Source of the DNA: Ceratodon purpureus
Taxonomy: Eukaryota > Streptophyta > Bryopsida > Pseudoditrichales > Ditrichaceae
Reading direction: 5' to 3'
Length of the DNA: 64,000 nt
Assembly (NCBI GenBank): GCA_014871385.1
Contig: CM026426.1
Coordinates: 17,298,183 to 17,362,182 of the forward strand
Part shown: one piece after another, positions 2,303 to 37,302 of the stretch
Numbering within the stretch: position 1 is the stretch's first letter
Layout of the letters: each line of letters begins with the position of its first letter
Notes under the pieces: model-generated
Told to the model about the DNA's origin: nothing
Seen by the model: only the letters and a program-made list of their open reading frames with translations
The model's database searches: none
Position numbers and translations under genes: made by a program

Positions 2303-2312
2303 GACTTTAGAA
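2303..2312 (+). repeat. Target-site duplication, left (GACTTTAGAA)
   Basis: GACTTTAGAA occurs here and again at 21477-21486, immediately outside the inverted ends of the large element. Mutator-like elements usually make duplications of about 9-11 bp, so a perfect 10-bp repeat at exactly these positions supports a single insertion. Confidence 0.8.
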
Positions 2313-2392
2313 GGGAAAACCACAGGTGTGAGCGTAGAGCGTAGAGTGTAGAGCGTAGAGCGTAGAGCGTAGAGCGTAGAGCGTAGAGCGTA
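2313..2392 (+). repeat. Left terminal inverted repeat with 7-bp tandem run
   Basis: The end begins GGGAAAACCACAGGTGTGAG and runs into nine copies of GAGCGTA (2330-2392; the third copy reads GAGTGTA). The complement of the right end begins GGACGTTACTCGGGTGTGAG and runs into six copies of the same unit. The outermost GG and the GGTGTGAGCGTAGAG core match; the bases between have diverged. Confidence 0.75.
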
Positions 2393-2442
2393 GAAATTCT
2401 GCCGGCCTACGCTCTGACCAAAAATATTTAATGGAACATTAA

Positions 2443-2531
2443 GACCCTATTACCACGGATTTAGGCATTATTGAATTCTGTGGATTTCTTTTCTAGGTAG
2501 AAGGATACCCTACATCCGCGGTAATAGGGTC
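2443..2531. repeat. Subterminal inverted repeat (GACCCTATTACC...)
   Basis: GACCCTATTACCACGGA at 2443-2459 is mirrored by TCCGCGGTAATAGGGTC at 2515-2531 with one mismatch, so the stretch could form an 89-base stem-loop. The same word, TCCACGGTAATAGG, lies at 21271-21284 and 52031-52044, each time 100-200 bases inside an element end. It may be a transposase or host-factor site. Confidence 0.65.
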
Positions 2532-2728
2532 CTAAAAACTAGTTATAATATTTTCTATCGTGGTAAATTAGGGCTGACGTCATCATAAAAAAATGATTAC
2601 CGGGGACCATTATTAAAAGGGTGGATTGTCAATGCTTTAAATGTCTGAGCTTTATTCGATTTATAGAATAATTTATGTTAGTTTAGGGTTAGTGCAATAT
2701 TATGGCTAACGTCATAATTTATAAGTGG

Positions 2729-2739
2729 TCATATATAAA
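2729..2739 (+). promoter_or_regulatory. TATA box of the hybrid-binding-domain gene
   Basis: TATATAAAAGG lies about 225 bases before the ATG at 2963, and no better TATA word is nearer. The plant telo-box-like word GGGTTTAGGGTTT (2869-2881) falls in what would be the 5' leader. Telo-boxes are common in plant promoters of growth-related genes. Confidence 0.55.
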
Positions 2740-2962
2740 AGGAATGGGAAGATACAATAGCAGCATCTACTTCTACTAATAGTTTAGGGCATGGATGAGT
2801 GGCAATCGCTATTGATGAAACCCTAGCAGTCAACAGGAGGCAGTTAACATTCTAGTATAAGTTACATTGGGTTTAGGGTTTGGACGCCATTTTGAGGACC
2901 TTTGTTTCTTGTATTCGCTGCGTGCGTTAGTCTCTTGGTTGTGATAGTGTGACGTTGCAAAA

Positions 2963-3415
2963 ATGGTGGACAGTTGTAGTAGTCATAGAGGTTTGTCCGA
3001 TAGAAGAGGATTGAGAGAAATCGCTGCTATGATGGTTTGGGCAGTGGCGGCGTTGATGTTGCGTATCTGCGAAGTCCTGTTTGAACGGGTTGATCGATGG
3101 TTTAGGGAAGGTCAGAGACGGGATTCTAGAGTTTAGATTGTGCAGGCGGAAGAAGAGAATACGGAGTTACTTCAACAGGGTGATGTTGTGGATTGGATGA
3201 GACGGGAGGTGCGAATGGGAAGGGAGATGTCAAACCTGAGATCTAGGGTTTTGACAAAGAAGGAAGGGAGATACTATGCTGTACGACGAGGAAGGATAGC
3301 GGGTGTGGTTCGAGAGTGGGAGGAGTGCAAGAGAAGGGTGCATAGGTACAGCGGCGCCCAATACAAATCATTCAGTACCCTAGATGAAGCAGTTCAGTAT
3401 TTGCAAGAGGGCTAG
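2963..3415 (+). CDS. RNase H1 hybrid-binding-domain (viroplasmin-like) small protein, one in-frame TAG
   Basis: ATG 2963 opens a frame of 150 codons to the TAG at 3413-3415, interrupted by one TAG at 3134-3136. The C-terminal 45 residues (YYAVRRGRIAGVVREW, ECKRRVHRYSGAQYKSF, TLDEAVQYL) match the N-terminal hybrid-binding domain of RNase H1, also found in the caulimovirus P6 family, which binds RNA/DNA hybrids or double-stranded RNA. No RNase H catalytic domain follows. The N-terminal part has a hydrophobic stretch (IAAMMVWAVAALMLRI), possibly a membrane helix. The internal TAG would be CAG before a C-to-T change; alternatively translation starts at ATG 3197, keeping the whole domain but losing the hydrophobic part. 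The gene lies inside the left end of the large element, convergent with MT1. Confidence 0.7.
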
Positions 3416-3916
3416 TTTATCAAACAAAGGTTGTATCGTGTTATAGAGAAAAATAGTGTCTATCATGAAGAATGACATGTAGTGTATACATGAAGATAAA
3501 GAGCCATAGACTAAGTAGAAGAAGAATCATCACTAACAATGCCATATATTGTGGACATGAAAATAAGAAGCCATAGAATAAGTAATAAGAAGCCATAGAC
3601 TATGTAGGAGGATAATCATCACTCAAAGGTTGGTCACACTGATCAGCTTCAATGTCTAGAAAACGGAATACTCTATTGCAATAGCGGTAACGACTAGAGT
3701 CATCGATCGCAGGTGAAGTTGCACGTGTGAATTGTTGTGCAATGCCCTCGGCATAGGAAGGCAGGGAAAACGTGGACGGGGGACTCTTGTAAAGCTCAGA
3801 GTTAAGGCTTAGTCGCTGTTTGAGACCTGCATGCCTAGAAATGCAAACATAGTCAAGTTGATTTCCATTGGTATTGAAGATGAAAATTGCTAGGAGATGG
3901 TTTAGGGAAGAAATTG
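3416..3916. other. Convergent 3' regions of the hybrid-binding gene and MT1
   Basis: No gene. It holds three loose copies of AAGCCATAGA(C/A)TA(A/T)GTAG near 3500-3610. Both flanking genes should terminate here, but no clear poly(A) signal can be assigned. Confidence 0.5.
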
Positions 3917-6900
3917 TTACGCACCCATATAAATGCGCCCCTTTTTGGGTGGAGGAGAATCACTGTCAGAGTCAAATTGAGACTCTCCGCTGTACTCTTT
4001 GACAACAGGTTTATTCTTGTAGGCAGCAAGCACTCCCTCAAAAATCTCGTGATCACGCTCCAATGCTATCAAATGACGGTTCGAACGCGCACATGCAATG
4101 ACAGAAGCTCCTAAACAATTACAAGTACAAATTAGTGATCATAATGTTACACAATATTACTCACAGAGAAAAGGTATGGCCTAAAACTGTTAGGAGATTG
4201 TGACTAAACAGAGCAGCAATCAGTCAAAAAAAGTGTAAATCACAGAAGATAGATCAGTGAGAAAGGAGATAGGTCTATCGTAGAAACGGAGGAATTACAT
4301 CGCCTAGATACTACTGGCCTTGAAGCCTGAAGAAATTCAATACAAAAATTAAAGGATCTCCTCTAAAAAGGATGGGTCATGTGATGGAAACGAAGGCATA
4401 CATGACATAGGTCCTCTGTATGAATGCTGTCAGAGTAAGCAATCGCAAACAGTGTAAACTGAAGGAAATTAAGAAAAAAAATAAAAAAATGGAAGTAGTT
4501 TAAAGGATAAACCAATGTGAATGTGAGGTACTGAATCATGAAATGAAACTAGTTTCAGGAAGAAAAATGGACAGTCGAGAGTAAGAGAGACATCAAAAAA
4601 AATTAAAATTGATTGAGTTAAGAGTCAGTGACAAATTTCAAAAAGAGTGTTCTAACATTCACAAATTGAATCAGAATGAACATAAACAATATGGCAAAGG
4701 TCGACCACAGTCAAGGACAGAATTTGAATAGTTCATTTTATTTGGACTGTATATGAAAGGGCAGGCTAAATTTGACTCAGTATGTACAAGACTTTTAATG
4801 AAAACCGAAACAATTAAGACCGAACCCATGACTGATGGGGCTACGAAATCTTAGCACAAAGCATATAGAAGCTGAACCAAATAAGGATTACAGCTCATCA
4901 AATCAGGACGATCAAGGCTTGACATGTACCATAGAAAAAAAAAAATGTGATATGAACATACCTGTGCTGGCACTCCAGTCAAAAACGATGTCTCCCTCGT
5001 CAGTGAGTAAGTCCACAAAACTCTGGATGAACGAAGGGTCCTTCTCACGGGAGCCACGCCATGGGGTCCCGTCAGGACGGAGGAGCTGAGAAATTTTGTC
5101 GGTGAAGTTACACAAATCATCTTGCTCGTCTGGGACGATGTTAACCCCGGCGTACTCTTTGTTTAATTGCCGAGTTCTAAATTTCACGCCCACGCTCTTG
5201 CGAGCATACACCTTGATGTTGAAATTGTGCGTCTAGAGAGAAAACCAGAGTTAGTATATAAGAGATTAAGGATCCAAAGAAGAAAATGATTGCTAAAAAG
5301 AGGAAGGACTTACAAATTTCTCATGAGGTAGAGTAGAGGCCATAGGGAGGGGATTGTATCCCCACCAGTCGCGAACAACACGAAAATCATAAGCACGGGA
5401 ACGGTCATCTAAGACGCGTTCAATTTTGCGATCCTTGGCATGCATAAGAAGGATACATCCTACATCTGTTAAGTGGTAGGATGCAAAGTAGAAGAGGTTC
5501 TCAACATAGTCCTTTTCTCGTACATTCCATGAAGGAACCTCTTGCTCTGATATCACTGGAACTGGCAATCCCTCCGGAGCATCCGCAATGATCAAATCAA
5601 TGGCAGGATGTTTTGGATTGAATTCCATGGCCGTGACAGGGTACCTTCGACCTTGTCCAATCTGGAAAAAAGAAAGTTCAGAAGTGAGACAAACACGGTT
5701 TCAAAAGAATGAAAACTGTATTAACTAAGAGATGGTTCAGAAACTCTGGTTTTACACTGATGCTCACATGGTCAAATAGCTACAAGTTCAAGTAACTGCG
5801 ATTTCTGCCTATTAGCACACATAACAATAAACTTACAATAACGTGAACCTACAATCCATTCAAAGTATACTTAACTGTGTGCCTGCAGGGATTGTTAGTC
5901 ATAATAATCGGGCCAAAGCATTCGGAAAATAACAAGGATATGGCATTATTTAGAGTGCCTCGCAGCATTCTAAATAATCAGAGGGTAGGGTTCGATCCAG
6001 CATATTAACCGTGCGGAAGAGCCTCCTTTACACACAAATTGCACCAAAATGTACCGCATTAAGATTATTAATTTATGGCAAAAAGGAGCCAGACTCCACT
6101 AAATTACAACCATGTCGGAACTGGCTGAATTCTGAATGGATACACAGAAACAAACAGTCGTGACATTGACTTCGCTTAGATGTTGAGAACCAGGACTACG
6201 ACGTATACACAAGATTAAAAGCATGAGCAATGAATAAACTCGCTTTAGACTTGAGCAAGACTAATACAGGTCATTCATTGTATTGAGCAGTCCACAACCC
6301 GCAAAAGCAAGGTAGATCTGTGTACCTGGTGAATATGCTGAACGATATCCATAATTTGAGGCACCCATGTACTTTTGTGGTTGGACTTGCAAACCATCTC
6401 AACCGGGTTTCATCTTTCCAGGTACATGGGCAATGTTGGTATCTCTGGACCAGAGGATGATGACGGAATTGTCTTTGGCATCAGAATGGGACGCGTTACG
6501 ATCCTGGCCTAGCCTCCCTGATGAGGAGACTGAGCGGAGTCTCCATCTAATTTAAAGGAAGGACGCGAGCAGGCATTGAAAACCCCTCCCTCAGATGCTT
6601 GGGAGGAATTAGCCCCGACTTTCCCTGCACTCAGCCCCTAAGACACCTGAGACAAGATCTCGGCAGTTACCCCTTGAGTCTTAGTGGCCGTCGGCACAGA
6701 TGCATTCCCACTTGTCTGCCCAAGGTCTTGAGGAACATCAATGTTGTCATTGTTTCCATCTTCAAGGGGTGGTGCGGGTGGATGGTTTTTTTTGTTCTTA
6801 CGCTTGGTGCCACGAACTCCACGACCTCTGGTCTGTGCAACGGGAGAGACTGATGCAGGCGATTCGTCTTCGAGTTCAAGCCCTTCTACTTCTAAATACA

Positions 6901-9900
6901 GTTGTGTGCCTCCTATCGCAGAAGGACTAGGGGGAGGGACCAAGTACGCCTCCTCCTGGTGGACAATATTCCGTTCGCACTCAAGGAACCAGGCCCCTGT
7001 CATTAGCAAATGATTATCAAACCGGTCTTGCTGATCTGCAGTAAAGATGGTAGGTTGTGATTCAAGTAAAGCCACGTCTTCGAATTGCTTTGGCATGGCT
7101 CAGACACCAAGCGCGCCTTTATGAACAAGTTCGTTTCGAAAGTACCTGCAATTACAATGGTTAATAATATATAGATGGATTTGGTAGAAACACAATTCAG
7201 TACAAGAAATAGAATCGAAGAAATTACCTGTAGACTAGGCGATTCCCGGCCATCTTGCCTCCCTCAATCTTGAGGAGATCCGATCCCTTATGAAACCTGG
7301 GGCTTGCATTAGCTCCGAGTAAATATCCATAAGCTTTTTTCCATAAGGGAACTCTCCACTTCTCAACGTACTGAATTGGTTTCAGAACTTCGTCTTTCCA
7401 GTCGATGTGAAGATTGTGAGTAGCGACCAGCCTCTCCACCTCATCAACGAGGTACCTCTCCAACTGAAGATGCTCGGAATTGTTAGAATAGATTAATGAA
7501 GTTAGAAGAAACATGTATGGAATGTAAAAGAAACAGGGTAGAGGATGTGAGGAATACCTGAGCCCAGAGGGATGCGACATGAAGCCATGTGTCTAGAGTC
7601 TTGTCCTTCATTGGCCGATCTTCTGGAAACCGTACACTCTTGCGAACAGCGAGTGTCGCATTCCACCATTGAAGCCATTTGGTCTTGTGATCAGAGGGAA
7701 CGTTGGTCGTTGCGATTTTGTGTAGGCGGTCAAGTGTCATATCCGCCAAAGGGAAATAAGAGTAATGATAATTGATCTGGAAAAAAGAAAAGAGTAAATG
7801 AGAGAATTATATGAAGAACTGGAAATAAACAAGTGGAGGTAAAGAATCGAGAGTACCTCTTTTTCAAAAGACTCTCCTAGAGCTGGGTTCGCAACCGCTA
7901 CCAACTTGTCAAAGTTTTTATTTCGGATTGCCTTGATGCATTTTTGGACAGCAGTGTCCATTGCTTTCCAAACACCATGTCCAGTTGGTTTAGGATTGTT
8001 CTCGTAATAACTGGAACATGCAATGTCTGAAGCTTTTGAGACTTCACCCTGAACATAAAGTAATTCAGTTAGATAAAGGTCAGTCGGTAGCTTGCACTAA
8101 AAACATTGACTCGGCTAAAGTTATTATTGACAGTGAGCTAGAATACGATATGTGAATCTGAGCACATTAACAGAAATGAAAAATTCTCGAAGTACTCATG
8201 AATCCATATTAATCTATAACTTTCCAAGCAGTTGGTGACAATGAACTTAATTATTTGCAGTAAACGAACTGTAGTTCTTAATGAACAAGACTACCGTCTG
8301 CGACAAAACAATAAACGAAGTTAGTCTTGGTGATATCAGAGGAGATGTTCGGATGGTTACAACTTGGATAATGTCCAGTTTCAAAAAAGTCATCAACAGT
8401 CTTTGCTGATACTATCGAGTAAACATAAATAGCTTGTAAATAAAACAACATAGTCGTTCTGAAATAGACTGAGCAAAAAGCGTAGAAATGCTAGTCTGGC
8501 GAAATCTAATACAGTACTAGCTGAAGAATTGGATTACTTCTCTGTTAAGGAAGTGAGCACCTGCGAGGAGATCATGGGCCTACCTAGGGAGCAAGTTTAG
8601 CGAACTCCAGTTATTGAAGGGCAATCTAACACCTTGTGAAAGAGTTGGTTTGAGCATTGTATCGATGTAACTCTATGAGATATCTCCTCAATGGACGTGT
8701 AGGTTTTGAATATCTACGACCAAAGTTTTTAGAACAACGCCGAGAGAAATTGACTCCGGAATAGCGTAAGGGACTAGAAATGAAACAAACACACTTGGAC
8801 AAAAAATTACATCGAAAACCTATACAGGAACAATCCTTGACCGCAATCCGGCATCAACTGGAAAGATTGAGCATAAACCAAACGACTCGCAACCTCTGTG
8901 ACAGAGGTGTAGGCTAACTTCCCGCAACCAAAGACTTAAATGCTTGACAACCGCCAGCGATCGTAGAAGGAACCAATCCCCGCCATCAAAGACAAAAGCA
9001 AGCCCCAACGACCCAAACGAAACAACCATGTACAGACTAAACCGTCATGAACATGAAGGATGCTGAATGAAGCCCCAGAAATGCAGAATCAGGAGATGCT
9101 ATGGGCAGGCTGCGTTACCGTAGGCCTGAATAATATTATGAAGCACCCGGGCCCCCAATCTAAGATAAAAAATCGGAGCAGAACTTGAAGAAAACCAAAG
9201 CGGGAACATGTGCTAGACTCTAGAAACTCAAGCTAGACATGTGCTAGACTCTAGGAAATAAGAACTCGATCTTGTCCAGGATCCAGCGAATTCAATAAAC
9301 AAAAAGAATCCACAGAACCGAAAGAGGAGACACAATCGTATTAGAAACTTTCAAGACCAATTTGAAAAATTGAAACAGTATATAGAAGCTTTGATACCTG
9401 GGGGCTGCCTTCCATTGTAAAATTTATAAAATTTTAATTCCCCCTTAAACAAATACCTAGGAGAAGAATGCTCAATGAACTCATGCGAAACCTAAGAGAA
9501 GAAATTTATGATGGCAGACTACGTTACTGCAAGCTTACTTTCGGTAGGCCGGATTTCCAAACCAGAAATGAATAAAATTAACCAAGCCCCTTAATCAAAG
9601 ATGGACCAAGAACATAATCAAAGATAGAACATTAATTTAACCAGGCCCCTTAATCGAAGCAGAATCTGAAGGAGACTAGAAACCAAAGCATCGATGGGGG
9701 ATATCAAACCAGTCTTTACTGATGCTATCTACATGAAATATGTGTGAAATGTATTAACTTACTCGTACATAAATTCACACATGAAAGAGCAGATTTAACT
9801 AATCAAAATTGGGAATGAAAATAATCAGTTCAGAAACCAAAAAACATCGGCAGAAGAGACACAACAATTTAGGAAACTTTCAAAACTTAGGATTAAGAAT

Positions 9901-12900
9901 GCAAGAACAAGATAGAAATAAAACAGTGTATAATGTAGACCTGATACGTGGGGGCAGTCTACGCAGTCAAGAAGATAAATTTTCAAATTTCAATGCCCAC
10001 TTTAAAACTCGTCACGACCATGAAGGATGCTGAATGAAGCCTTAGAGATGTGGAGAAGAAATATCTGAGAGCAGACTACGTTAACGCAGGCTTACATTCG
10101 AAACTAAAAAGAATAAAGTCACAAAGGCCAACTGTCCAGGCATAGTACATGGACACAGAACCTGAAGGAGACCATACCGAAAACCTAGGTGCATGTGACG
10201 ATGTGAGATACTGGAAACCAAGCAGAGTTTATTAAAACAGTAGTATAATCAAGGAAAGATGAAAATACCATATGACGCTGTAGAAAGACATACCGAAAAC
10301 AAGAATTTGACGAAGACGTCCATCGTCAAAGAGTACCACGTCGGCTGCTTTGCTTTGTTTTTTTGGCAAACCTCCATGTCCTCGTCAGATATCAATTCTT
10401 TGAAGGATTGAAGATCAAGCTTCCCGAAAGTTCTAACCCGCTGAAGTTTAGCTGGAAGACCTTGTTTCACATGGTCATTCTCAGTTGACCTGTTTCATGA
10501 GTACAAAAAGCGTAATTAGACCCAAATAAATTAAGATGCATGAAGAAAATAAATTAAGAGTGTAATGGGATTACCAATTGATGTCGTTCATGGCGTTAAG
10601 GAGTAACCCATGTTGTCGGCGTCCATCCAAAACGATACAATCAGGGGAAATGTACCAAATAGGATCATCTGCATGGAGGATTTTAATGTGACGAGTCCAG
10701 GCAGTGACCCTATGATTCCCCTCGTACACATGGAAGAACTTCTTGCTGAATTGCATAAGATCAGGATCCGCTTGGAGACGTGCCTCAAATCGTTCATTCT
10801 CGAGCTTCCAAATGGGGTTGAGCCAAACCTCTTCCGAACCAGTCACAGGGGTCTCCATATCTTGAGCATCGTATAAGGAGACGTATATCACCCGATCGCC
10901 TACGCGATAACCTCGAACGAAGTCATTCTCTAACTTTCTGACATCCTGTTCAATGATTGGGCGAACGAGAGGGCATGTAATCAATCGACAGAGGGGGATA
11001 CACAGTCTAGATTTCCCCTGTGGAAAATTTTGAAGTCGATTGATAATTCCCACACAATCGTTCTTGTGCATTAGTCTCATCTCGTTGGCGGTGAACATTG
11101 GGTCTTGATCTAAGAGATGGGCAGGCATCAGACTAACATCTGCCTGGGCAGCCAAGGGTGAATCGACACCCAAGCCGTTAATGGGTGCCATGGAAGGCGT
11201 GGGAGTCAAAACCTCGACTGGCGCCTCAGTAGCATTGAGTTCGAGAATAACCTGAGAAGCAACAGCCGCAACAGCACACTCTTGACTTGCGATTGGATTG
11301 GTAGCTTCCAAGGGTTGAGAAGATGTCATCGCAGGTCTCAAGGGGAGTGACTCGGAATCTGATAGAGCCATCTGTTAAGAAGAAAAATCCAGTAGTTAGA
11401 GTTTAGCAAATATTACAATTAAAAACAGAGACTAATGTGTAAGGGAGATACAAATTAATTAAAAACATTGTAATGACATTGTAAGTTCGGATGAGACTCA
11501 AACAAGAGCATTGTAATGACATTGTAAGCATCCTCGTCAACGAGGGTTACTTGAGCCCCAATCAGAATTCCCTTAGCCTCTAGAATCCGTGAGATCTCGA
11601 AGCCAGTTTTGCACCCAATATAAAAGAAATTTGCAAACCAGATCATCCTCGTAAGCTCTATCTATGCTCTCAGCATAGCATAAAATGCACCCTACCACAC
11701 GAGCACCGAGGCACAGCTATGCAGACCAGAACCGAGGCCAGTAATGCACCCTAGCACCGAAGCCAGAAATGCACCCTACCATGAGCAAAAAACAAAATTA
11801 AACCATGAGCTAGAGCATCCTCGTCAACGAGGGTTACTTCTGAGCCTGTGAGAAATCTTGGTAAGCTTCCCCTTTGAGCCAAAATTGTAATAAAAATAAT
11901 TTTTAACCAGAGCATCCTCGTCAACGAGGGTTACAGAAAATCCAACCAATATTCACTGTAAGCTCTCTCTGTATGCTCTCAGATCTCTCGAAGCCAGCAA
12001 TGCACCCTACAACACGATCAAAGCATCACCCCCTGTAATGACATTGTCAGCATCTCGATGCTCAAGGAAGGGGACTTGAGGGCAGTCTGCGTTAACGTAG
12101 GCTGCTCTCACAAGTTAAAAAAGAACTTAAATCTCAACACACATAATCCAAAGCGATCAGTACCGAACCGAAGCATCATCTTGATCCTGAAGAAGAAGGA
12201 CCCGGGGGCAGTCTGCGTTAATGCAGGCTGCCTTCACAATGACAAGTTTATTTTCTACGAACCCATCCTAACATTAACTCAAACGTATCAGCAACCATAA
12301 ACATCATCAAGTAAGAAAATATTAACTCAACCATAACGTGAACTTAACCATCGTTAAGTTAATCAACTAGTCCCCGTAAATGAATCTGCCTGGGGCAGCC
12401 TGCGTTAACGCAGGCTCTCTTCACAGGTACAAAAATGATGTAATTGTAACATAATCTAGAGCAAACAGCAATGGACCGAACCACAATATGAGCATCTCAT
12501 AGCTCAAGCAAGGGGACTTGAGGGCAGTCTACGTTAACGTAGGCTGCTCTCACAAGTAGAAAAAAACTTAAATCTCAACACACATAATCCAAAGCGATCA
12601 GTACCGAACCGAAGCATCATCTCGATCCTCAAGAACAAGGACCCGGGGGCAGTCTGCGTTAACGCAGGCTGCCTTCACAATGACAAGTTAATTTTCTTCG
12701 AACCCACCCTAACATTAACTCAAATGTATCAGCAACCATATACATCATCAAGTAAGAAATTATTAACTCAACCATAACGTGAACTTAACCATCGATAAGT
12801 CAATCAACTAGTCCCCGTGAATCTGCCTGGGGCAGCCTGCGTTAACGCAAGCTCTCTTTACAGGTACAAGAATGATGTAATTGTGACATAATCTAGGGCG

Positions 12901-14106
12901 AACAGCAATGGACCGAACCACAATCTGAGCATCTCATCGCTCAAGCAAGGGGACTTGAGGGCAGTCTGCGTTAACGTAGGCTGCTCTCACAAGTAAAAAC
13001 AAATTAAATCTCAACATACATAATCCAAAGCCATTATAACCAAACCGAAGCATCATCTCAATCCTCAAGCACGAGGACCCGGAGACAGTCTGCGTTATCG
13101 CAGGCTGCCTTCACAATGACAAATTAATTGCTAAGGAACCTACCCTAACATTAACTCAAACGTATCAGCAACCATTGACTCAAATATAACTCAAACATAT
13201 AACTCAAACATAACCATCAATAACTCAAAGAAAACATGGTCAGCGTAGGACCGAACCACAAAGCGAGCATCTCGATGCTCAAGGAAGGGGACTTCAGGTC
13301 AGGCTACGTTAACGTAGGCTGCTCTCTCTAGTACCAAACAAAAGGAAATTCTAACATACATATCCCAGAGCCATCAGCACAAATCATAGCATCATCTCAA
13401 TCACGAGGACCCAGGGTCAGTCTGCGTTAACGCAGGCTGCCTTCACAAGATTCTGACCAACACTAACATAAACGAAAACCTGTACTTGAAGCCAATATTG
13501 AACTTCGAGAAGCCTACACTACGAGAAGCCATACTTGAACTACAGTAACCAGTACTCATGAATGCATTATATAAGGGCAGTCTGAGCTTGTAAACTCTCC
13601 CCGTCACAAGTGAAATAATAAACATTCAATAAGCATACCACCGGAACAACAATACTTTCACCTCCGAATTCATACTTCACCAAACTATCACTAGTTCCAA
13701 ATGGTAATACCACCAACATCCGAGAAAACCTAATTTACAAAGTCAAGCACCTTCACGGAATCAACAATGTTTGCATATTCGAATTTCAAATTATTGTTGT
13801 AGATAACCTAAGTCCACAATCGCAGCGATCCAAGTCCAAATGTTGTGTTCAGAATTTCTTGATCGCTGAGGTTTAGGCTACAATTAGCAAGCGACTTGCT
13901 GTCCATTATCCTGAGGGTTTAGAGCAAAAGTTTGAGTTGGAATTCTAACTCACATGATCTGCTTGCGCGTTCACCATCTCCGATACTTCGCCAAGTATCA
14001 CATCCTCTTTTCCAACATCCATCGCAATTGCCTGAGGTGATGCAGCATCTCCTCCAACCACCATCTCGACTGCCTGGGAGATTTTGGAAACCAACTCAAT
14101 ATCCAT
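3917..14106 (-). CDS. MT1: ParB-like domain fused to a beta-class DNA-methyltransferase-like domain, 11 exons
   Basis: Exons on the complement: 14106-13954, 11371-10575, 10489-10294, 8048-7857, 7776-7558, 7463-7228, 7145-6647, 6508-6326, 5661-5314, 5232-4962, 4110-3917. All joins are GT-AG and keep frame for 1,096 codons, ending in TAA. Residues about 180-310 hold a ParB/sulfiredoxin-like region with GNHRVTAW near residue 269. Residues about 826-1060 look like a beta-class DNA methyltransferase: motif IV first (DLIIADAPEG, in place of DPPY/W), then TPWRGSREK, then motif I last (IVFDWSASTG), and the acidic IALERD after it. Such fusions are known in bacteria and phages. In-frame TGAs at 7102-7100 and 6412-6410 each fit a lost CGA. 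Target base and activity are unknown. Paralog MT2 at 38-47 kb supports the exon model. Confidence 0.75.
8060..10290. repeat. MT1 third intron with diverged palindrome-bearing repeats
   Basis: This 2.2-kb intron lies between the exons ending at 10294 and starting at 8048. It holds at least three imperfect copies of a block with GAAGGATGCTGAATGAAGCC (about 9058 and 10021; a looser copy near 9460), each followed about 40 bases on by a degraded palindrome: GGCTGCGTTACCGTAGGCC (about 9107), GACTACGTTACTGCAAGC (about 9514) and GACTACGTTAACGCAGGC (about 10074). These are older forms of the palindrome in intron 1. Confidence 0.65.
11460..11950. repeat. CCTCGTCAACGAGG palindrome group in MT1 intron 1
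   Basis: The word GCATCCTCGTCAACGAGGGTT occurs three times (about 11529, 11816 and 11911). Its core is CCTCGT-CA-ACGAGG, two 6-base arms around a 2-base spacer. ATTGTAATGACATTGTAAG also recurs at about 11467, 11511 and, partly, 12033. It is unrelated in sequence to the GTTAAC palindromes that follow but has the same design. Confidence 0.7.
12035..13620. repeat. Higher-order array of GTTAAC-centred palindromes in MT1 intron 1
   Basis: About ten copies of a palindrome near AGCCTGCGTTAACGCAGGCT are spaced about 110-190 bases apart (near 12090, 12203, 12396, 12523, 12652, 12833, 12963, 13085, 13301, 13414). They belong to a higher-order repeat: blocks beginning GCATCTC-(A/G)-GCTCAAG-AAGGGGACTT start at about 12051, 12490, 12928 and 13267, giving periods near 438, 438 and 339. 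Units alternate between palindromes flanked by GGGGACTTGAGGGCAGTC and by GGACCCGGGGGCAGTC. Arms show paired changes (CTGCG/CGCAG versus CTACG/CGTAG), suggesting that symmetry is maintained. Confidence 0.85.
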
Positions 14107-15240
14107 ACTCGTACACTCAAGAAAGAAAGAGAATTCTGATTCCGAGCACCTTCTCCTAAGTACCCTTCGCAGACCAAATCGAATCCAAGCAATCGCCATT
14201 TGGAATTCCAGCAGTTCATTATTCCCCAACAACAAACCCAATCTTGTACACACTAAAAACAGATATTTCATTCTTGCTGCCGTCGGTTGCTACTTGGATT
14301 CCTGCAAAGTAAAATCTAAATCCAAGCGTGAGCCAACCATCCTGACGACCACTCCAATCTTGGTACTCTTTTACAGTCTGTTCTGACTAGCTTCACATTA
14401 ATTAGACCACCCTAATCTCGATTCTCTTTCATACTCTGTAATATGTATAAAAATCTGACAACGCCGAGCTGAAAATTCCGAAATTAGCATCGCGACTTTA
14501 CTGTCCACGAACCAAAAGCCTAACCCTGATGACCACATGACCGCCCACTAAGTTTGATCCAAATGAAAACCATTCTCAATTCGCAATATCGAAGTTGGCC
14601 ATATGCACGCGTACTAACTTCCACTATACCCGCTGGCCATATACCCGGGATCCGAATACAAGCTGGCCATATACCCGGTTCTGCAATTCGCATGTAAGAA
14701 CCGGTAATCTACCCGAGTTTCCTATACCCTGTCCACCAGCTTATACCCGGGTATCATGATATTTCCTTGTAAGTATACATTGTCTCATCTTTAAGCGTAT
14801 GTGTAAAGACTCTACATTTGTTGAAAGATAAAAAGAAGGAGTTGCTATTTATCAAAATTAAGGAATAAAAAAAGTCGAACAAAACCTATTTCCAGTTGTT
14901 TTATTCTTATGCACACACATATTCATGTAAAAGATTAAAAACTAAAATACTATAAGCTATCACCTTCATTATGTACGCCTAATTTACATGTTAAGGAAGT
15001 TATATCTTAATAATTGTTCGTTCCAAATTCCACGATCTTAACGTAGGACGATCTTACTATGGTCAATATACCATGATATAATAACTTGAAGAGTCTACAA
15101 ATCAAAAGATACGGAATATATAAAAGTTTTTAAAACAATCGCATATTATCCCTTAGGAATCTTCATTTGCAATAATTCACCATGTCACATATTAGAAAAA
15201 GAATTGTATACTTTTAAGATATTCTAATAGAAGTAATTAC
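14107..15240. other. Spacer between MT1 exon 1 and the basic-protein gene
   Basis: No gene seen. The words GGCCATATACCCG and relatives repeat at about 14627, 14671 and, loosely, 14742. The stretch at 14800-15240 is AT-rich. The MT1 promoter should be in the 14107-14500 part, but no TATA word is convincing. Confidence 0.5.
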
Positions 15241-15880
15241 CTCCTCCTCAATGGATGGACCATGTGAGATATTTCTCTCGTCGATTGCATCCAAAACATT
15301 TCCCTTCACATTGTTTTCTTCGCGTGACAACTTACCACCTTCAAAAGGCATGTCTTCTGTAGTCTGCCACTTCACAAGTCACCATGTAGTCTCTAAGTAC
15401 ACTATCCGTAATCTACAAACAAAAAAACTTTAAAAAAATAAACAATAATAAACAATATATAGTGAATTCAGAAAATAGTACCTCATTCTGTATTTTGTCA
15501 CACTGATCAATTACAATAGTATCAAACCCAAGAGAGTCGCAATGCGAGGGAGACTGGTGCATGTAGTCCTCTTCTGCTTGAATGTCTTGTCCATCATTCC
15601 TTTCATCGACGTCCACCTTCTCCACAATCTCTACCACTGACTCTAAGTTAATTGAACGCATCTTAGTATGTCTCCTAAATGAAACTGATCCTTCATCATC
15701 AGATCTTTCCACTTCGTCACCATATTGATCCTCTCCTATAGACACTGACGCCTCCTTCCTACGTTGAGCATTGCGCTTCATCGCCTTCGTATTACTAAAC
15801 TTCATGCCACCCCTCCTCTTTTTCTTCTTCTGCGTTGTATCTACCTTCACTCTCTTTCCTACATTGTCAACTAGGTCCAT
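15241..15880 (-). CDS. Small basic protein, two exons visible, same strand as MT1
   Basis: Exon 15880-15482 begins MDLVDNVGKRVKVD, then the lysine/arginine run KKKKRRGGMKF, and ends ...CDKIQNE before GTACTA. A second exon, 15363-15241, is joined in frame (TTEDMPFEGGKLSREE) and ends at GTAATT. No later exon or stop is clear, so the 3' end is uncertain. The protein is basic at the start and acidic afterwards, with a nuclear-localisation-like patch. The first exon resembles the + strand exon at 37303-37572 (KRKKRGKFYYSTKK, GRKKKESW), which also lies between a transposase ORF and an MT gene. It is divergent from the transposase and shares its promoter region. Function unknown; a DNA-binding accessory of the element is possible. 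Confidence 0.55.
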
Positions 15881-16407
15881 ACTACACGCAATCTTCAAGA
15901 CCGGATTTCTAACTACAACATTGCACCTCAAGTCCACTATATCTCACTCAAGAACAAAGAGACATAACTCTTGCATTCCACCTCTAGATATACGAATTCT
16001 AGATCCCAATCCTCTCCCTAATTATATGCACGCGCATTCTACTTGTCCATGAGCCACCAATGCCTAACAATATGGCATTCCGCGTCTGACATGAAATTCT
16101 AATCTCATTTCAATGGCAGGTTACAAAGACGGCCGCGGGCGCGTTTCTAATCTAACAAGTGAACTAAAAACTAACAACTCTTACTTTCAAGGCTTAATAT
16201 AATTTGATGCATTATCATTATATATATCATGCACTCACCATAATCCATTACAACATTAATATATAATACACCAACATCAATAATTCACTGTCATCTTTAT
16301 TTATCAACAATCGTACGTTAACCTTTATGCATTATAAAGAGGTTCACAAAGTCTGAACAATCCCTTCTCATGTGAATTGTCCATGCACACTATCACCTGC
16401 TCTCCCC
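15881..16407. promoter_or_regulatory. Bidirectional promoter, basic protein / transposase
   Basis: The 527-base gap separates two divergent starts (ATG 15880 complement and ATG 16408). On the transposase side, ATTATAAAGAGG at about 16331 is a reasonable TATA box some 75 bases before the ATG, which has strong start context (CCCCATGGC). An earlier ATG at 16370 is followed at once by TGA. Confidence 0.5.
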
Positions 16408-19400
16408 ATGGCTTCCTCTTCTACTCTGCCTCCAATCCTTACTGCTATTGAGATTTCTTCTGTTGGTTCCACTGCTCCCATCTGCATCCCCCCTGGTCTC
16501 GATGGGTTGGCAGATATTACTTCTCAATGGCTAGGAATTCGTTTTGGATATGATGCTTCTACTCTCTGGTTAGAGACAGAAGTTATGGATCCTGTAACTA
16601 AGCAAGTTCAGTACTCCAAGGTCGTAGAGCCTTCATCTTCTGTTAACAACGTTAAGATGTGGAAGCTCTGTCCTGGGAAGTACCGTCTGTATGGTTTGAC
16701 CGAGTCTGTCATGAATGCCTCCACAGTTCTCCTAACTCCTCGTAGTTCCTCTACTCTCTCCACTGTGGTTCCGATGACTGCTCGTGTCAAGGTTGAGCCA
16801 GGAACTCGCGTCAGTATAGATATTTCAGATTCGTCCGATGATGAGAATAAGTCTTCTGTTGAGGCTCGTCCCGCCTCGTCAAAACTTCCTTCTCCTTCGT
16901 TTTCATCTCAACACTCGCATAGGTCAACCCAATCTCACTTACCCTCTCCTCAATCTACAAAACAGAAAACCATTCTTCCGTCTCTTTTAGCTCTCTCTAG
17001 TATGAGTGGTAGTAAAAACATCCTAAAAAAAATAAACTTCAGATCCATCCGTACTGTAACTACATCTTTCCTACCCCCGTCATTCAATGGCGATGTACTC
17101 TTCATTCTCCCTCCTGCCCCTTCATCAGCATCCCAGAGGACTGCGAAGTCCTTGGACGGCATGGACAAACGATACGATGGTCACGTTTGGACCAGAACTA
17201 TGACCACCAACATTAGCAACACACTAGGGTTGACATTCAGATACTCCCACTGTGTAGGGCATCTGCAATGCCACAACCCTTAGTGCAGTTTCTTGCAACG
17301 TCCAGACCGTGCGCATGGAGTGAACGAGTTGGAATTCGAAGGCGTCACCAAAGACCTATTCCCTGTGGGGGAGGCGCCTCGATCTGCGTCAACTCTGCTC
17401 TGTAAGATCTGCAAAGAACCCCCTGTCTGTGTGAGTCTCTGTAGTGCCAAAATCTTCTACATTTTCGGTGAGGATAGTCAAGAGCGTGCCTGTGTGCATA
17501 TTGGTACTCACGAACATCCGGTGAAAGTAGGAGACTACAGATGCTTCCGAGGGAAGGTAGATGAGTTGATAGAGGAACATGTTGGACTAACCCCCAATGC
17601 TACCATCTCAAAGATAGTTCTAGAAACCAGTAAGGACCTTCTTGGTAATTTCCTTCTTCGTGACGAAGCTGACCCACAGACTTCTCCCCTCTCTCTTCAT
17701 GATCTAGAACCTGTCTTTGAACAATGTAGAGAATTGAACTCCCCTGCATTACGAAACCGTATCTACAGTTTCAAAATGTTACGAAGATATGGCGTCATAG
17801 ATGGGATCACGAAACTCAGAGGTCTCAGTAATTGGGCCTACGTCCAGAAGAATATCTTTCCTGGCCAAGGCGACGACGCTCATAAAGTCTTCATATTCAA
17901 GATGTCAGAGGTCGGTCCTGGAAGCGGTGTTGATCTAGTCCGCCGTATGCAGCCCGGTGGGTCCCTCTCTCAAGCCTGGATGATGTTTGACCATGTCAAA
18001 CGGGTGAAACCTTGGGCCACGATGGGGTGCCACGTCTACAACTCCACTTATCAACGCATACTAACTATTGCATGCTGTGAATTCCAATCTGAGGACACAG
18101 AAGCACAGGTGTTGTTCTGGACGAATCTCAATGACGTTATGGCAAGGCACGGAATACCAATGCCTCAATTCCAAAGATTCATGGCTGATAGTGCGCACGC
18201 CAATTGGAACGCCGTGCGCATTGTTTATGGCTCCGGTGACCCCAGTGTCCCGATGGAGGGCCAAGAAAGGACATGCTACTTTCATTGGACGCAGTCACTA
18301 GAGACTCACACCAAGAAGTATATTATTCACGACTTGCAGGACCAACACAAGGTTTTGTGCAAGCAATATAAAGATGCACTTACCATGGATGAAGCAGAGA
18401 CACGTTACTTGGCGATCAGGGCTTGCTGGTCATCCTCAAATGCTACATTAGAAACAGGGCTCTATAATCTTGGCCACTGGCTATCATATTGGCATCATCG
18501 TTACAGACAGTGGGGTGGATTCATGGAACTGGTAAGTTCTCTCTTACTGTAATATACTTTATATTTATCCTTTTTCTTCTTTTATCCTTCTTTCTTCTTT
18601 TATCCTTTTTTATATTTTAAATAAATTATAAGAAATTATAATTTCTATGTATAGGAGAGGGTTGCGTTACCGCAAGCCTCTACCATGAGGTCAAAATATA
18701 ATTTCATTGATTTTTTGCTCATCGCTTTATTTGCAGGAAAACAAATATTCTGCCGAAGAGCTGGCTGAGATGCCGTCCTGTAACCTTGCGGAGTCTATTC
18801 ACAATAAATGGTTACAAGCTTCTGGAAACAAGGGTAGAGACTTGTATGTGGCAGCTGTCGATGATTATGTACGTGCATTTCTCCAAGTTGTTGCGTACTA
18901 TCAGTACACAAAAGGTGGAACCGCTGGATTTGGTCCATCCAGAGAAGAACTTAGGCTACGTAGTGCTCAACGTCGTGCTCAACGGAGCGGTGATCCTTCG
19001 GCACTCAGTAAGGTGGTGACAGAGTTCCCAGGAGCAGAAGAATTTTGTACTCGTGATGCGCACTTAGAGGGAGCAGAAGTATTTGGTACACAGAAACGTA
19101 AAGCCAATGTTCCAATCGGAGCTGAAGAGGAAACTCATAGACCAGACACCGTGAATTTCTCACGTCCTCAAATTGGAAGAAGGGTTACCCGTGCCCGTGG
19201 TGGAAGCTTGACTACCATCCAAGAAGACGATGATGTTGAGATAAACCCTGTTCAGCCTTCGACCTCTATTCCGTCCGAAATTCAGCGCGTGACAGCTGTG
19301 CAGGAGACTTCTGTGGATGTAAAGCAATGGCACATTGCTTGGCTTAATTACAACTCAGCCAAGTCCTGTTGGGCTCAGATGGCAGTGACAAAGAAGAAGT

Positions 19401-20185
19401 GTGAATCGCGCATAGTCCAGAACGGGAAGTCCACCCTTGCTCCAACGTACACCGGCATATGGATGCCTCCTCAAAATGGTCAACGCAAGAAGGTGGAAGA
19501 ATTTTATTTCTGCCCCGACGATATTGAGAGGTGTCGGAAGGGTACTCGTCGGAAGTGGGTTGAGCCATTCTCACAAACTCAATCTAGACCCCCCCTCCCA
19601 ACAATCTGGCCCGTGAAGATAGGCACCAATCTGACTCGTTCAGAAATGGAGGCCTTGGAGAATGCTGGTTTTCAACTACCTCAGAAGGAACGACTTCATC
19701 CTAACCGTTCATTCAATAATACATTAGTACCTCGGGACTTGTCCAATGTTCCGGTGCCGGACAATGCCGATGTCTTCCCAAAATCAAGGAAGTCAAAGAC
19801 ACTCCGTCGCATCACAGACGTTAGTTCCAAGCATACGAGGACCATTGATTCAGCCCGGGCGATGCAAGCAAAAATCTTGAAGGTCACCTTACTACCACAT
19901 CCTGGTATTGGATGCATTATTTCGATGGAGTCGGACTCACAGGCAGTATATCAGCTGTCAATTGGTACATTCCCTGATTGCACCTGTCCAGTCTTTAAAT
20001 CAACGATTGCTAAGTTAGGGCGTAGAGGATAACCTTACAGACCTTGCAAGCACCTGTACTACGTTTTTGTGTTAGTGTGTCATTTTGAAGCAGATGTAGA
20101 CCTCTTCATCCACGCACCTACCTTCAGTTTCAACGAGGTCAAGATGATCATGGAGAGGGGAATCCTAGACCTCCTCTCAGAATAG
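16408..20185 (+). CDS. Mutator-like transposase with N-terminal zinc cluster and C-terminal SWIM finger, two in-frame stops
   Basis: Two exons, 16408-18531 and 18737-20185 (GTAAGT...TTGCAG, phase 0), give 1,191 codons. In order: a variable Ser-rich region with VKVEPG; a Cys/His cluster (HCVGHLQCHNP, then CSFLQRP); a GCM/WRKY-like module (CKICK...RACVHIGTHEHPV); a transposase core with FMADSAHANWNAVRIVYG and CYFHW; a long linker; and a SWIM finger (CTCPVFKS...PCKHLYYVF, the CxCxnCxH pattern). Known: Mutator-like transposases combine an RNase H-like core with SWIM fingers. The first catalytic Asp is not obvious; if it belongs in the CHVYNSTY motif, this copy reads Asn. TAG at 17281-17283 lies inside the Cys/His cluster and TAA at 20030-20032 inside the SWIM finger; both would be Gln codons before a C-to-T change. 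An N-terminal relic of the same protein lies at 36180-36581. Confidence 0.8.
18657..18683. repeat. Palindrome in the transposase intron
   Basis: GAGGGTTGCGTTACCGCAAG followed by CCTC forms arms GAGG-TTGCG / CGCAA-CCTC around TTAC. Its core resembles the MT1 intron palindromes (CTGCGTTAACGCAG), so it may be a solitary relative inside the same element. Confidence 0.55.
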
Positions 20186-21050
20186 ATGTGACTTTACATA
20201 AATATAGATAATTTATAGAATAGATGAGATAGTACATTACATATAGATTACTCATATAATCTCGTGGTTCATACAATATGTAATATTGTTACACAGCACT
20301 GTGTAAATCAATATAATAGACACTACAATCATAACGATGCATACGCCATAGCAAACATCTCATTCCCTCCGACACTCAGACTTAGGCCTTCAGAACTTGA
20401 AAAGTCCTTACAGCAAACTCTGCACTATGAGATCCAGTTTCCTGTTTCTTACTGTAAAGGACAACCCGTCCAACTCTTGTCGATATACAAATTTGCGCCA
20501 TCCGATATGATCACAGACGGCAACTGAACAACTGGATTCACGTCGGAGGTGGAGGTCAAGGGATACGGAATGAGGGACTCCGTCATGATCTTCACCATCT
20601 CGATGGTACAAGCCACTGTCCACCGCCATTCCCCATCACCAACACGGAGGCATCCGATGTGTCTAAACGGCGGAATGACCACGCCTCGTTTCCTAGCGCG
20701 CTCCACCTCCACCAGCCATGGCCGCAGCTCCTCATAACTCGCAGGTGCCTCTGGGGCTAAACCCACAGCCGCCCTTGTCCTCCTTGACATCCGATTACGC
20801 ACCTTCGGCATCTCTCCCGACGCTCTCTCGTTGCTTCTAAACCGATTCAAGCTACCCCGGAATGAACTTTGCCTATCATTCTATTGCAAGTCTTGACACA
20901 TAGTGGATTGACACAGCCCGCGTCAGTATGCTAAGTCCTCACTCCAAAGCCCACAGAAAATCCAAAAACTGGATGTAGATAGGAATCATAGACCTCCTCT
21001 CATAAAATCCAAAATCGGGCTGTAGATAGGAATCTTAGACCTCGTCTCAC
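20140..21050 (+). repeat. Repeated copies of the transposase 3' end
   Basis: The last codons and trailer of the transposase (AATCCTAGACCTCCTCTCAG near 20161) recur as TAGACCTCCTCTCA near 20985 and TAGACCTCGTCTCA near 21030, each with GATGTAGATAGGAATC or GCTGTAGATAGGAATC before it. The third is followed by a trailer like the first (AATAGATG...CTTTACAT, ATATAGATTA). This looks like local duplication of the subterminal region. Confidence 0.6.
20449..20811 (-). CDS. Small unrecognised protein at the transposase 3' side
   Basis: ATG 20811 (complement) opens 120 codons ending in TAA: MPKVRNRMSRRTRAAVGL, then PASYEELRPWLVEVERARKR, WRWTVACTIEMVK and SWTGCPLQ. The start is very basic. Beyond the TAA the frame continues with a TAG and a Cys-containing stretch (CRVCCKDFSSSEGLS) to a TGA at about 20340, or a GTAAGA donor overlapping the stop could lead to another exon. 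It is convergent with the transposase inside the element's right end. I do not recognise it. A second protein convergent with the transposase is a known layout in the Mutator group (mudrB next to mudrA), but no sequence similarity can be claimed. Confidence 0.45.
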   Translation of the reverse strand: MPKVRNRMSRRTRAAVGLAPEAPASYEELRPWLVEVERARKRGVVIPPFRHIGCLRVGDGEWRWTVACTIEMVKIMTESLIPYPLTSTSDVNPVVQLPSVIISDGANLYIDKSWTGCPLQ

Positions 21051-21417
21051 AATAGATGAACTTTACATTATGTATAGATTATTCGCATACTCATGTAGTT
21101 CACACGTTTAGAGAATCAGAAATCTGAAACCTTTGTAATTAAATACAATACTAAAATCTATGACTATGTCATTTCTCTCCATGTCGCACTAATTCATGTA
21201 AAGAGTTTCTATGTAGACTTCACCGAAGTCCACATTTTCACCCTTAAAACCACGGGTTTGGGTAAGAAATTCCACGGTAATAGGTACCAGTTAATTCGAA
21301 TATTCTGTCTAATTTCATCATATTTGCGAGAATATTCTAGAAATCCTTTTTTTTTAATTTATTTTTAGTAAAAGACTGACTAAAAATGTACCCTCACCGC
21401 TCTCAGATCTGACATTC
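21051..21417. other. Right subterminal region of the large element
   Basis: No gene. It holds TCCACGGTAATAGG at 21271-21284 and a T/A-rich run before the 7-bp repeats. Confidence 0.5.
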
Positions 21418-21476
21418 TACGCTCTATGCTCTACGCTCTACGCTCTACGCTCTACGCTCACACCCGAGTAACGTCC
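21418..21476 (-). repeat. Right terminal inverted repeat with 7-bp tandem run
   Basis: Six TACGCTC units (21418-21459; the second reads TATGCTC) are followed by ACACCCGAGTAACGTCC, the inverted counterpart of the left end. GACTTTAGAA follows directly. Confidence 0.75.
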
Positions 21477-21486
21477 GACTTTAGAA
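21477..21486 (+). repeat. Target-site duplication, right (GACTTTAGAA)
   Basis: Right-hand copy of the 10-bp direct repeat at 2303-2312, directly after the terminal GG/CC of the inverted end. Confidence 0.8.
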
Positions 21487-21884: not shown

Positions 21885-22390
21885 TGCAACCCATCATCAA
21901 CCAACAAGAGAATTCCAACAAAAGGAAAAAAACAAGCATGGTAACAACGCTGACCTGGTTGGAAGGATTACTACGTAGGAGGTTGTTGAGAAGTTCCAAA
22001 CAGTCCTGAAATATAAAACGGTAAGTAATCTCTATTAAGTGCTCAATGATCAAACCACACAAGCCTAACACAAATACTAACTATACCTTTAAAATTAGCA
22101 ACAGTTCCAACGATGACAGCCCGCAACAGTGGCAACGATGACGACAAGATTCGAGGCACTTCAACATCTACAGCAAACTCAATGGTTCTAAAATACTATA
22201 GTGAATAGAATATCTTTTGCAAGTTCTAGCATTCCCAAAACGAAATTGGACATCTCAAAACACATCGTACAAGCACCATTACAAAGTACTCACTACACCA
22301 CCAAAACTGCAGAAAACAGAATTGCCAATATAATAGACTGATCTCCATTCAATCACATACTCAAGCCAATCTCTCTCCTATTCATGCATA
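21885..22390 (+). repeat. Direct repeat, right copy (partner 780-1310)
   Basis: Same-orientation copy of the block at 780-1310, sharing AACCAACAAGAGAATTCC, GAGAAGTTCCAAACAGTCC and CACTTCAACATCTACAGC. It lies about 400 bases right of the large element, so the two copies frame the insertion. Confidence 0.8.
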
Positions 22391-24995: not shown

Positions 24996-25106
24996 ACGTT
25001 GAATGCCTCAGATCCAAAACTTAGAGTACTGTTGGGAACTCCGATAAGTTTAGCGATTCCTAATTAAAACTAATTACTGTATGAAAACGGAAAAAGTAAA
25101 AAGAAT

Positions 25107-36179: not shown

Positions 36180-36581
36180 TCACCCAAAATTTTCTCTAAT
36201 GGTTACATCAGGAGTATCCAAGCCAGGCTCTAACTTAACCTTCACATCACGAGGCAGAGGAGTCTGAACAGTAGATGATCTACGAGGAGTTAGAATCTCG
36301 GTAGACGCCTGCATCTGGGACTCTGTAAGACCATAAACTCTGTATCTACCAGGATAAAGGTTTTAGAACTTGTTATCGTCATCATCTTTCTGAGAAACCT
36401 GATCTAGCGTATGTGTAATCTCATTTGTCTCATCATCATAAATCTCTTCCTCTAAACAAACAGTCTCCTCTCTGAAGTGAAATCTGAGGCTAAGGCGTTG
36501 TGCCGTCACAAGTGCCAAGCCATCTTCATCTACACGTACTGTAAATGGAATACCAACACCATGAGCTCTGAGCACGGCCAT
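36180..36581 (-). pseudogene. Transposase N-terminal relic (related to 16408-20185)
   Basis: ATG 36581 (complement) begins MAVLRAHGVGIPFTVRV. After a TAA at 36365-36363 the frame continues with NLYPGRYRVYGLTESQMQAS, LTPRRSSTV and VKVKLEPG, ending at a TGA. The intact transposase has KLCPGKYRLYGLTESVMNAS, LTPRSSSTL and VKVEPG at the same places. The zinc cluster, catalytic core and SWIM finger are absent. The TAA stands opposite a Trp in the intact copy, so the site cannot be explained by one base change from that copy. Confidence 0.75.
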
Positions 36582-37302
36582 GCCTCACACTCTGTCTGCA
36601 GGGAGGTGAGCCATCGCAGGGAGAGAGGATAGTACTTGAGTAAAGAATTTGAAATTCTAGAATGAGAGGAATGTTGCTTAGATTGTCATCAATTTATGCA
36701 ATAGTGTAACTGTCAGGACCCACCTAATTTTCAAAAAAACATAAATGAATGAATGTAGTTCGTTAGGTTAGCTGGCATACCGGTTATTGTTATCATATAG
36801 CCGCCCTTACTGATCGGAACATCATGCTTAGAATTCTACTTGCTCACCTAATTCTCTCTGATTAGTAATTTAGTATTAGCCGTCCAATTAGGCTTAAAGT
36901 AGATTAATGTGATAAATTGAGAACGAATCATAAATGCTAACTTATTAATAATACTGAAAGACAAGAGTACATTGTTTTTTAGAGTACCCAAGATTGAAAT
37001 AGATTTGCCACTAATTATTTTAAAAAACTCTTTGACATCATGCTTGTTATTTTATTTGTTGGACATTTATGATTGTTAGATATGCGCCGTCATTCTTGAT
37101 TTATTTATGACGTGGACTAACTTTTATGTTTGTCCTTTTATCTTTTATTTTTATTTTTAATAAACGTCGTTTCTAATCGAATCTTGTAAAGGAACTGGGC
37201 ATCACATTCAACGTCTTATGCCAGTAGAACACCAATGCCTCTATACTGGAGTCATTCTTATATATTTCTAGCTTTGTATGCAACTACTTCTTTTGATGTG
37301 AC
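36582..37302. promoter_or_regulatory. Divergent promoter region in the second element copy
   Basis: The gap between the divergent transposase relic and basic-protein gene corresponds to 15881-16407 in the first copy. It is AT-rich, with no clear shared motif by eye. Confidence 0.4.

Follow-up and report, generated by a model that had tools for sequence, protein, structure and literature searches.

What keeps a gene that joins a ParB-like domain to a methyltransferase-like domain inside a moss transposon, and what could its product do there? The question is raised by a 64,000-nucleotide stretch of Ceratodon purpureus DNA (C6:17298183-17362182), called here the window, in which a sequence-only reading had described a 19.2-kb Mutator-like element with a ParB-methyltransferase fusion, MT1, as cargo. 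Coordinates below are those of the window, with + or − for the strand; the window element is named W, its relatives elsewhere in the genome A to J, and an element nested in E is named N. Comparison of these copies supports a single mobile unit that includes MT1 and is Mutator-like in the length of its duplications, the structure of its ends and the layout of its transposase. Rather than chance cargo, MT1 is a constant part of the element under selection in at least two lineages, and it may act on arrays of palindromic sites that lie between it and the transposase.

Boundaries and copies of the element

Element W spans 2313-21476, and a perfect 10-bp duplication, GACTTTAGAA, lies directly outside both ends (2303..2312, +, and 21477..21486, +), as the sequence-only reading had noted; it occurs nowhere else in the window, where 0.23 occurrences are expected and two were reached in 3 of 100 shuffles. 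The inverted ends had been described as GGTGTGAGCG plus 7-bp repeats. Both components are present, with GGTGTGAGCG at 2325-2334, its reverse complement at 21455-21464, and about nine 7-bp repeats inside it at the left end and six at the right, but the element does not end there, since its true ends lie 12 bp further out, at 2313 and 21476. These outer 12 bp are unlike at the two ends, yet conserved from copy to copy, which explains the gap that had been seen between duplication and inverted repeat. The left terminus (2313..2395, +) is composed of GGGAAAACCACA, GGTGTGAGCG and 7-bp GAGCGTA repeats, which form the terminal inverted repeat, and the right terminus (21416..21476, −) of 7-bp repeats, GGTGTGAGCG and, on the reverse strand, the outer 12 bp GGACGTTACTCG; the inverted-repeat arms are 49 nt long and 96% complementary. 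The region around the element is locally repeated, with an 86%-identical 0.5-kb repeat in both flanks (799-1314 and 21889-22388), and ACTTTAGAATCTTCAAA, which overlaps the right duplication, has a second occurrence near 2013.

The first 168 bp after the left duplication were used as a query against the assembly and gave at least 42 matches, a lower bound since only the best candidates were scored, with right ends and pieces of one end counted apart. Of these matches, 33 lie on C6, which at 110,524,308 bp makes up 30% of the 362-Mb assembly and is apparently the V sex chromosome of this species, judging from the VG tag (KC19_VG030900). Twenty were long left-end matches, and the 11 of them that were read are W and A to J. 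Both ends were located in seven (W, A, B, C, D, E, J); the exact right end of F was not found, and neither right end nor transposase was found for G, H and I within the 20 kb fetched per copy. Complete elements measure 13.8-19.2 kb, mostly 18-19 kb, apart from E, which reaches 36.8 kb because N, itself 18,876 bp long, sits inside it.

The seven main-lineage copies share the termini GGGAAAA[A/C]CA[C/T]AGGTGTGAGCG ... CGCTCAC[A/T]CCCGAGTAACGTCC, and N has GGGGAAAGTTCGTACGTGAGCG ... CTCACATACAAGCTACGTCC. All eight complete elements (W, six relatives and N) are flanked by a perfect 10-bp duplication, each of a different sequence: GACTTTAGAA for W, TTCAATCGCC for A, ACTCTCCAGC for B, TGCCACCAAA for C, AGTCTTTAAG for D, GTTCCTGTAG for E, CGGCATTCTG for J and GCGTGTGTTT for N. 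Mutator-like elements produce target-site duplications of 8-11 bp. With the same ends, their own duplications and MT1 at the same place, the further copies bear out the single mobile unit that had been proposed. Copies in which the ends enclose only the transposase had been named beforehand as one refutation, and none was found: MT1 exons occur in all 11 of the left-ended copies read (of 20), with position and orientation unchanged and only in part in I and D.

The transposase gene (16357..20190, +) has two exons. A D-x-T...D...C-x2-H core, an N-terminal zinc-finger-like C/H cluster and a C-terminal SWIM-like CxC...CxH were recognized by eye in two lineages aligned at 53% identity, without profile support, and we take this pattern of core and SWIM motif to be a mark of Mutator-like transposases. 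The SWIM-like motif of the SWIM-type Mutator transposase claimed earlier is present, but the Pfam MULE and SWIM models gave no match to the two spliced transposases (E-value up to 10) or to three open reading frames (ORFs) of the window (0.1). Since the motifs were seen by eye and not confirmed by profiles, the element is called Mutator-like here and not treated as a settled member of the group.

Structure, selection and decay of MT1

MT1 (3600..11371, −) encodes a ParB/sulfiredoxin-fold domain and an N4/N6-methyltransferase-like domain; the exons of the fusion described earlier are present, although about 10 are modelled instead of 11. The reference used was P0001, an annotated open-frame relative, which matched 67% of the query at 98% identity. 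In exon 1 (10576..11371, −), residues about 104-265 have the ParB/sulfiredoxin superfamily fold in a predicted structure (AlphaFold2 model, Foldseek, VIA-align 2). Searched with Pfam models, 83 MT1 sequences gave no family with an E-value better than 0.02, and CB_ParB_C matched 2 of the 83 (best E-value 0.089); neither the ParB exons nor the whole P0001 family had a match in PDB profile searches. Exons 7-8 (4962..5661, −; 5661-5314 and 5232-4962) carry a beta-class methyltransferase-like domain in which DAPE replaces DPPY, together with the S-adenosylmethionine (AdoMet) motif DWSASTG. An AlphaFold2 model of this half (P0001, alignment of three sequences) had a predicted local distance difference test score of 28 and was unusable.

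MT1 is also carried by N, whose ParB, middle and methyltransferase exons are about 38-51% identical to those of the main lineage. MT1-like genes occur as well where element ends were not located: a second, distant one in G, a third and more distant one around E (31-53% by exon), and one in an older remnant within the window. Around C1:9117000-9154800 and its flanks the copies are layered three deep, with N within E and E within the third-lineage MT1-like gene. In alignments of W with the diverged copies A, B, D, E and F, the central non-coding DNA can be matched in part or not at all, while the stretches with MT1 exons are about 66-86% identical.

Pairwise ratios of nonsynonymous to synonymous change (dN/dS; Nei-Gojobori, stops skipped) were computed for W, A, B, C, E and N, using pairs whose synonymous sites are not saturated. 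Within the main lineage and without the near-identical pair W-C, dN/dS is 0.05-0.08 in exons 7-8, 0.085-0.13 in the ParB exons, 0.08-0.15 in exons 3-5, 0.14-0.27 in the linker exon and 0.14-0.26 in the transposase. For W-C, MT1 and transposase give higher values (0.34-0.88), which come from few changes. With N, the sole usable methyltransferase pair (E-N) gives 0.25, and linker pairs give 0.29-0.45. MT1 is under strong purifying selection. Being constant and selected in at least two lineages, it is poorly described as cargo.

The two halves of the element have diverged unequally and have different histories. The transposases of W, A, B and E share 95-98% identity and have a synonymous difference of 0.04-0.13; for MT1 that difference is 0.36-0.77. 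Relative to W, copies A, B, E and F are 90-98% identical over the transposase half (16-21.5 kb) and 68-86% over the MT1 half (3.3-15.3 kb), and the identity profile switches near 15.3-16.3 kb. From these patterns, main-lineage elements appear to exchange or homogenise modules.

W itself is a degenerate copy in which both main genes are broken, a point missed by the sequence-only reading: four in-frame stops interrupt exon 6 of MT1 (7145-6326), and the transposase has two (17281-17283 and 20030-20032). Similar decay affects most copies in this genome, with a single transposase stop in A and, in each of B, C, D and J, at least one stop in MT1, the transposase or both. Open-frame copies nevertheless exist, since two of the eight complete elements, outer E and N, are stop-free in the aligned MT1 exons 1-8 and the transposase.

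Palindromic site arrays and the possible role of MT1

A second feature missed by the sequence-only reading is an array of palindromic sites between the two main genes of W. The central array (12049..13435, +) has 10 sites CTRCGTTAACGYAG at 12087-13435, partly inside a 441-bp tandem repeat (12049-13175); two more sites lie in the large MT1 intron (9110..10089, +; 9110-9123 and 10076-10089), and a degenerate one with 3 mismatches lies in the transposase intron (18662..18675, +). With up to three mismatches, the pattern CTGCGTTAACGCAG occurs 15 times in the window against 1.56 expected from dinucleotide shuffles (0 of 100 reach 15); 14 of these sites are within W, 10 of them at 12087-13435, and one (17384) falls within the coding sequence of the transposase, perhaps by chance. 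The same single pattern gives 11-14 sites in the seven complete main-lineage copies, compared with 0.3-0.7 expected from 500-bp block shuffles of single bases, and none in N. When patterns are fitted per copy, the count is 10-14 sites in 8 of the 11 copies, 6 in H and one in each of G and I; the MT1 of G itself is without exons 1-4, and I retains part of exon 1. B and F share the longer site GCAGCCTACGTTAACGTAGGCTGC. N has 21 copies of TGTCGTTGACGACA between MT1 and transposase at a spacing of 210-212 bp, plus two stray matches. A de novo search for near-perfect palindromes, which used the same block shuffles, picked up the arrays in W, B, D and N and missed that of E. In W, this search also returned two further repeated palindromes.

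A further lineage with an array is represented by the older remnant in the window, which contains an N-terminal transposase fragment (36204..36584, −; 64% to the N lineage), an array of 10 sites TGCCGGTGCCGGCA (38320..40951, +) with more at 42490-44688, and an MT1-like gene (41059..46580, +) whose ParB exon is 38% identical to the N lineage and which has the motif DFPDGLHVP. Across the window, TGCCGGTGCCGGCA gives 33 strand-matches where 1.61 are expected (0 of 100 shuffles), and 31 of the 33 lie in 38320-44688, between the transposase fragment and the MT1-like gene and within that gene. The two genes of the remnant, whose ends were not located, read away from each other like those of W. It can be seen that the three lineages (main, N and older remnant) have three different sites, each array lying between MT1 and transposase. 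The sites lie largely within tandem repeats, and their number therefore partly reflects one duplication history; that repeat units of 441 bp and of 138, 156 and 211 bp (spacings) each carry a site at the same element position goes beyond such a history.

MT1 is proposed as the reader of these arrays because the layout is shared with the VANDAL elements and their VANC protein, and because a ParB fold beside clusters of palindromes recalls bacterial parS. VANDAL elements are Mutator-like. The transposase and MT1, the two main genes, read away from each other with the array between them, and MT1 would bind the sites of its own element. Its ParB-like domain would recognise the sites or serve as a clamp, and its methyltransferase-like domain would act as an AdoMet- or DNA-binding module or as an altered enzymatic one. 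By occupying the region between the genes, MT1 would keep the element expressed or marked as self, and it may use cytidine triphosphate (CTP) and influence silencing. Protein and sites appear to diverge together between lineages, which would mean that each lineage recognises itself; W could not do so alone and would rely on relatives with open frames. To this reading, a giant Mutator-like transposon whose MT1 binds its own site array and keeps the element expressed or self-marked in a VANC-like manner, we give a probability of slightly less than one half. Its more specific form is the more doubtful: a ParB-parS-like system belonging to the plant transposon itself, in which a ParB fold fused to a repurposed methyltransferase would load on the arrays and keep the element active or marked, and co-divergence would leave each lineage recognising only itself. 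Several points weigh against MT1 as the array reader: within the main lineage, site and ParB domain co-vary for B-F as they should and fail to do so for D-E; the site, a perfect palindrome in some copies, is imperfect in D and E, where only the outer arms of CTGCGTCACCGTAG are palindromic; and the transposase may be the binder of the sites. That MT1 counters host silencing, as the sequence-only reading had suggested, is possible, and the idea gains indirect support because the site arrays parallel VANDAL/VANC.

If the transposase or another element protein is bound or assembled at the sites, MT1 could aid transposition, acting for instance as a nickase or clamp of the ParB type. We regard this as unlikely. 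A bacterial ParB-methylase fusion does have nicking activity (PMC5512222), and the degenerate site noted above lies in an intron of the transposase gene. Against it, the site consensus varies, for example between W and E, among copies (W, A, B, C, E and J) whose transposases are 95-98% identical, and the terminal 7-bp repeats would be more natural transposase sites.

Another explanation, which seems still harder to sustain, is that MT1 is an active DNA methyltransferase (N6-methyladenine or N4-methylcytosine) that marks or protects element DNA. The AdoMet half of the domain and the beta-class motif order are retained under purifying selection. N scores 34.2 bits against Pfam N6_N4_Mtase, above the cut-off of 26.7, and the main-lineage proteins fall below it (14.5-18.3 bits; 20.2 for the cut-out domain). 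PDB profile matches include a DNA cytosine-N4 methyltransferase as the best (8s9m, E-value 9e-4), which we take to be the bdelloid enzyme, and DpnA (1e-3); the match to CcrM is weaker (0.07) and close to the first unrelated match (0.11). In phages, tblastn with the spliced methyltransferase of N gave 191 records at an E-value up to 0.1 (best 2e-6), with 23-27% identity among the 12 matches listed, and IMG/VR scans with transposase and MT1 gave no relative. A related phage methyltransferase has DIPY, and a change at the second position alone is thus compatible with the methyltransferase family. The last position is another matter: among 15 readable MT1 sequences, 13 have D[AIVF]P[E/D/N] and two decayed ones have DIAE or DASD, the canonical [DNS]PP[YFW] occurs in none, and the motif ends in E, D or N in all 15, never in Y, F or W. 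In the bdelloid enzyme N4CMT, a change from SPPY to APPA abolished activity (PMC8885841). Base methylation by MT1 is doubtful because its catalytic motif, D-x-P-E/D/N, lacks the aromatic end of DPPY and SPPY. With the motif altered throughout and the W copy broken, the earlier claim that the element brings its own DNA-modification enzyme finds no support.

Capture of MT1 without any role, in the style of Pack-MULEs, is very improbable: Mutator-like elements do capture host gene fragments (PMC6431247), but each of the 11 copies read has MT1, as does a diverged lineage, and main-lineage dN/dS is below 0.3 apart from W-C. Finally, that the duplication and inverted ends arose by chance or from the flank repeat, with the genes as unrelated neighbours, is refuted, despite that repeat and the second ACTTTAGAATCTTCAAA, by seven further elements that have the same or related ends and different perfect duplications of their own.

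In addition to the two main genes, W contains several smaller ORFs. One (3137..3415, +) has an RNase H1 N-terminal (Cauli_VI) domain (Pfam PF01693, E-value 4.8e-18) and matches in A to J; its dN/dS of 0.27-0.79 in the 10 pairs computed points to weak constraint. Two others are uncertain genes, of which the first (13945..14289, −) shows weak conservation, at 38-46% in B, E and F, once the close copies C and J are set aside, and the second, small and basic (15413..15943, −), is partially conserved among copies, with stops in A, B and E. A fourth ORF (20449..20880, −) is matched in all seven complete main-lineage copies and has a counterpart in N at 66-71%, located at the other end of N. N also has an ORF of YMPTSPV repeats (N coordinates 5698-6147, −), presumably resembling the RNA polymerase II tail. 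Elsewhere in the window, a 501-aa open frame (48551-50056, −) has no Pfam match above cut-off, and dispersed and tandem repeats are common to 25-26 kb and 30-32 kb (25066-25563 and 29852-31925).

Comparison with known systems

With its predicted ParB fold and with palindromic sites clustered close to its gene, MT1 resembles the bacterial ParB-parS system and CTP-dependent ParB clamps; the moss system differs in residing in a plant transposon, and for MT1, CTP binding and site recognition are putative. MT1 has the motif GNHR where, we assume, ParB has GERR. Polyvalent proteins of phages and conjugative elements carry ParB or methylase domains, as does MT1, and in bacterial Bce_0392 a ParB domain is joined to an amino-methyltransferase domain in the same way (PMC5512222). 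MT1 differs from both in its about 10 exons, extra middle region, D-x-P-E motif and residence in a eukaryotic transposon. Bdelloid N4CMT, a captured bacterial amino-methyltransferase, is likewise a eukaryotic protein with an N4/N6-type methyltransferase domain, but it is a host gene product fused to a chromodomain, has SPPY and acts against transposons, whereas MT1 is transposon-borne (PMC8885841). Similarly, Pack-MULEs carry genes between Mutator-like ends, but these are captured fragments, with none above 7 kb according to a report cited in PMC6431247, whereas most of the moss elements measure 18-19 kb and their genes are constant and under selection. Enlarged CACTA elements of 16-20 kb have been described in a red alga (PMC6431247), and large DNA transposons are therefore not new in themselves.

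The closest comparison is with VANDAL of Arabidopsis. It has been reported that VANC binds short motifs in non-coding tandem repeats and removes silencing from its own family (PMC5735166, PMC10398659), that the motifs differ between families, and that the transposase is far more conserved than VANC (PMC5735166). The moss element resembles this system in its second protein gene, in lineage-specific motif arrays in non-coding DNA and in a transposase that is much better conserved than the second protein. The differences are that VANC has DUF1985, of which Pfam gave no match in the MT1 sequences scanned, while MT1 has ParB and methyltransferase folds; that VANC motifs are 8-9 bp and the moss sites are long palindromes; and that binding and loss of methylation have been shown for VANC, while for MT1 binding is proposed. 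Transposons that carry a second gene together with a motif array of their own are a kind known from VANDAL/VANC; the ParB-methyltransferase protein, the long palindromes and the size of 18-19 kb are new to us, and the literature searched, mostly outside subscription journals, holds no description of such an element. If MT1 does read its sites, the moss elements would provide ready-made pairs of DNA-binding proteins and sites for testing how a selfish element and its target co-evolve, and would represent a second, independently built self-finding system of a plant transposon, assembled from bacterial-type parts, which would suggest that the VANDAL/VANC strategy is convergent.

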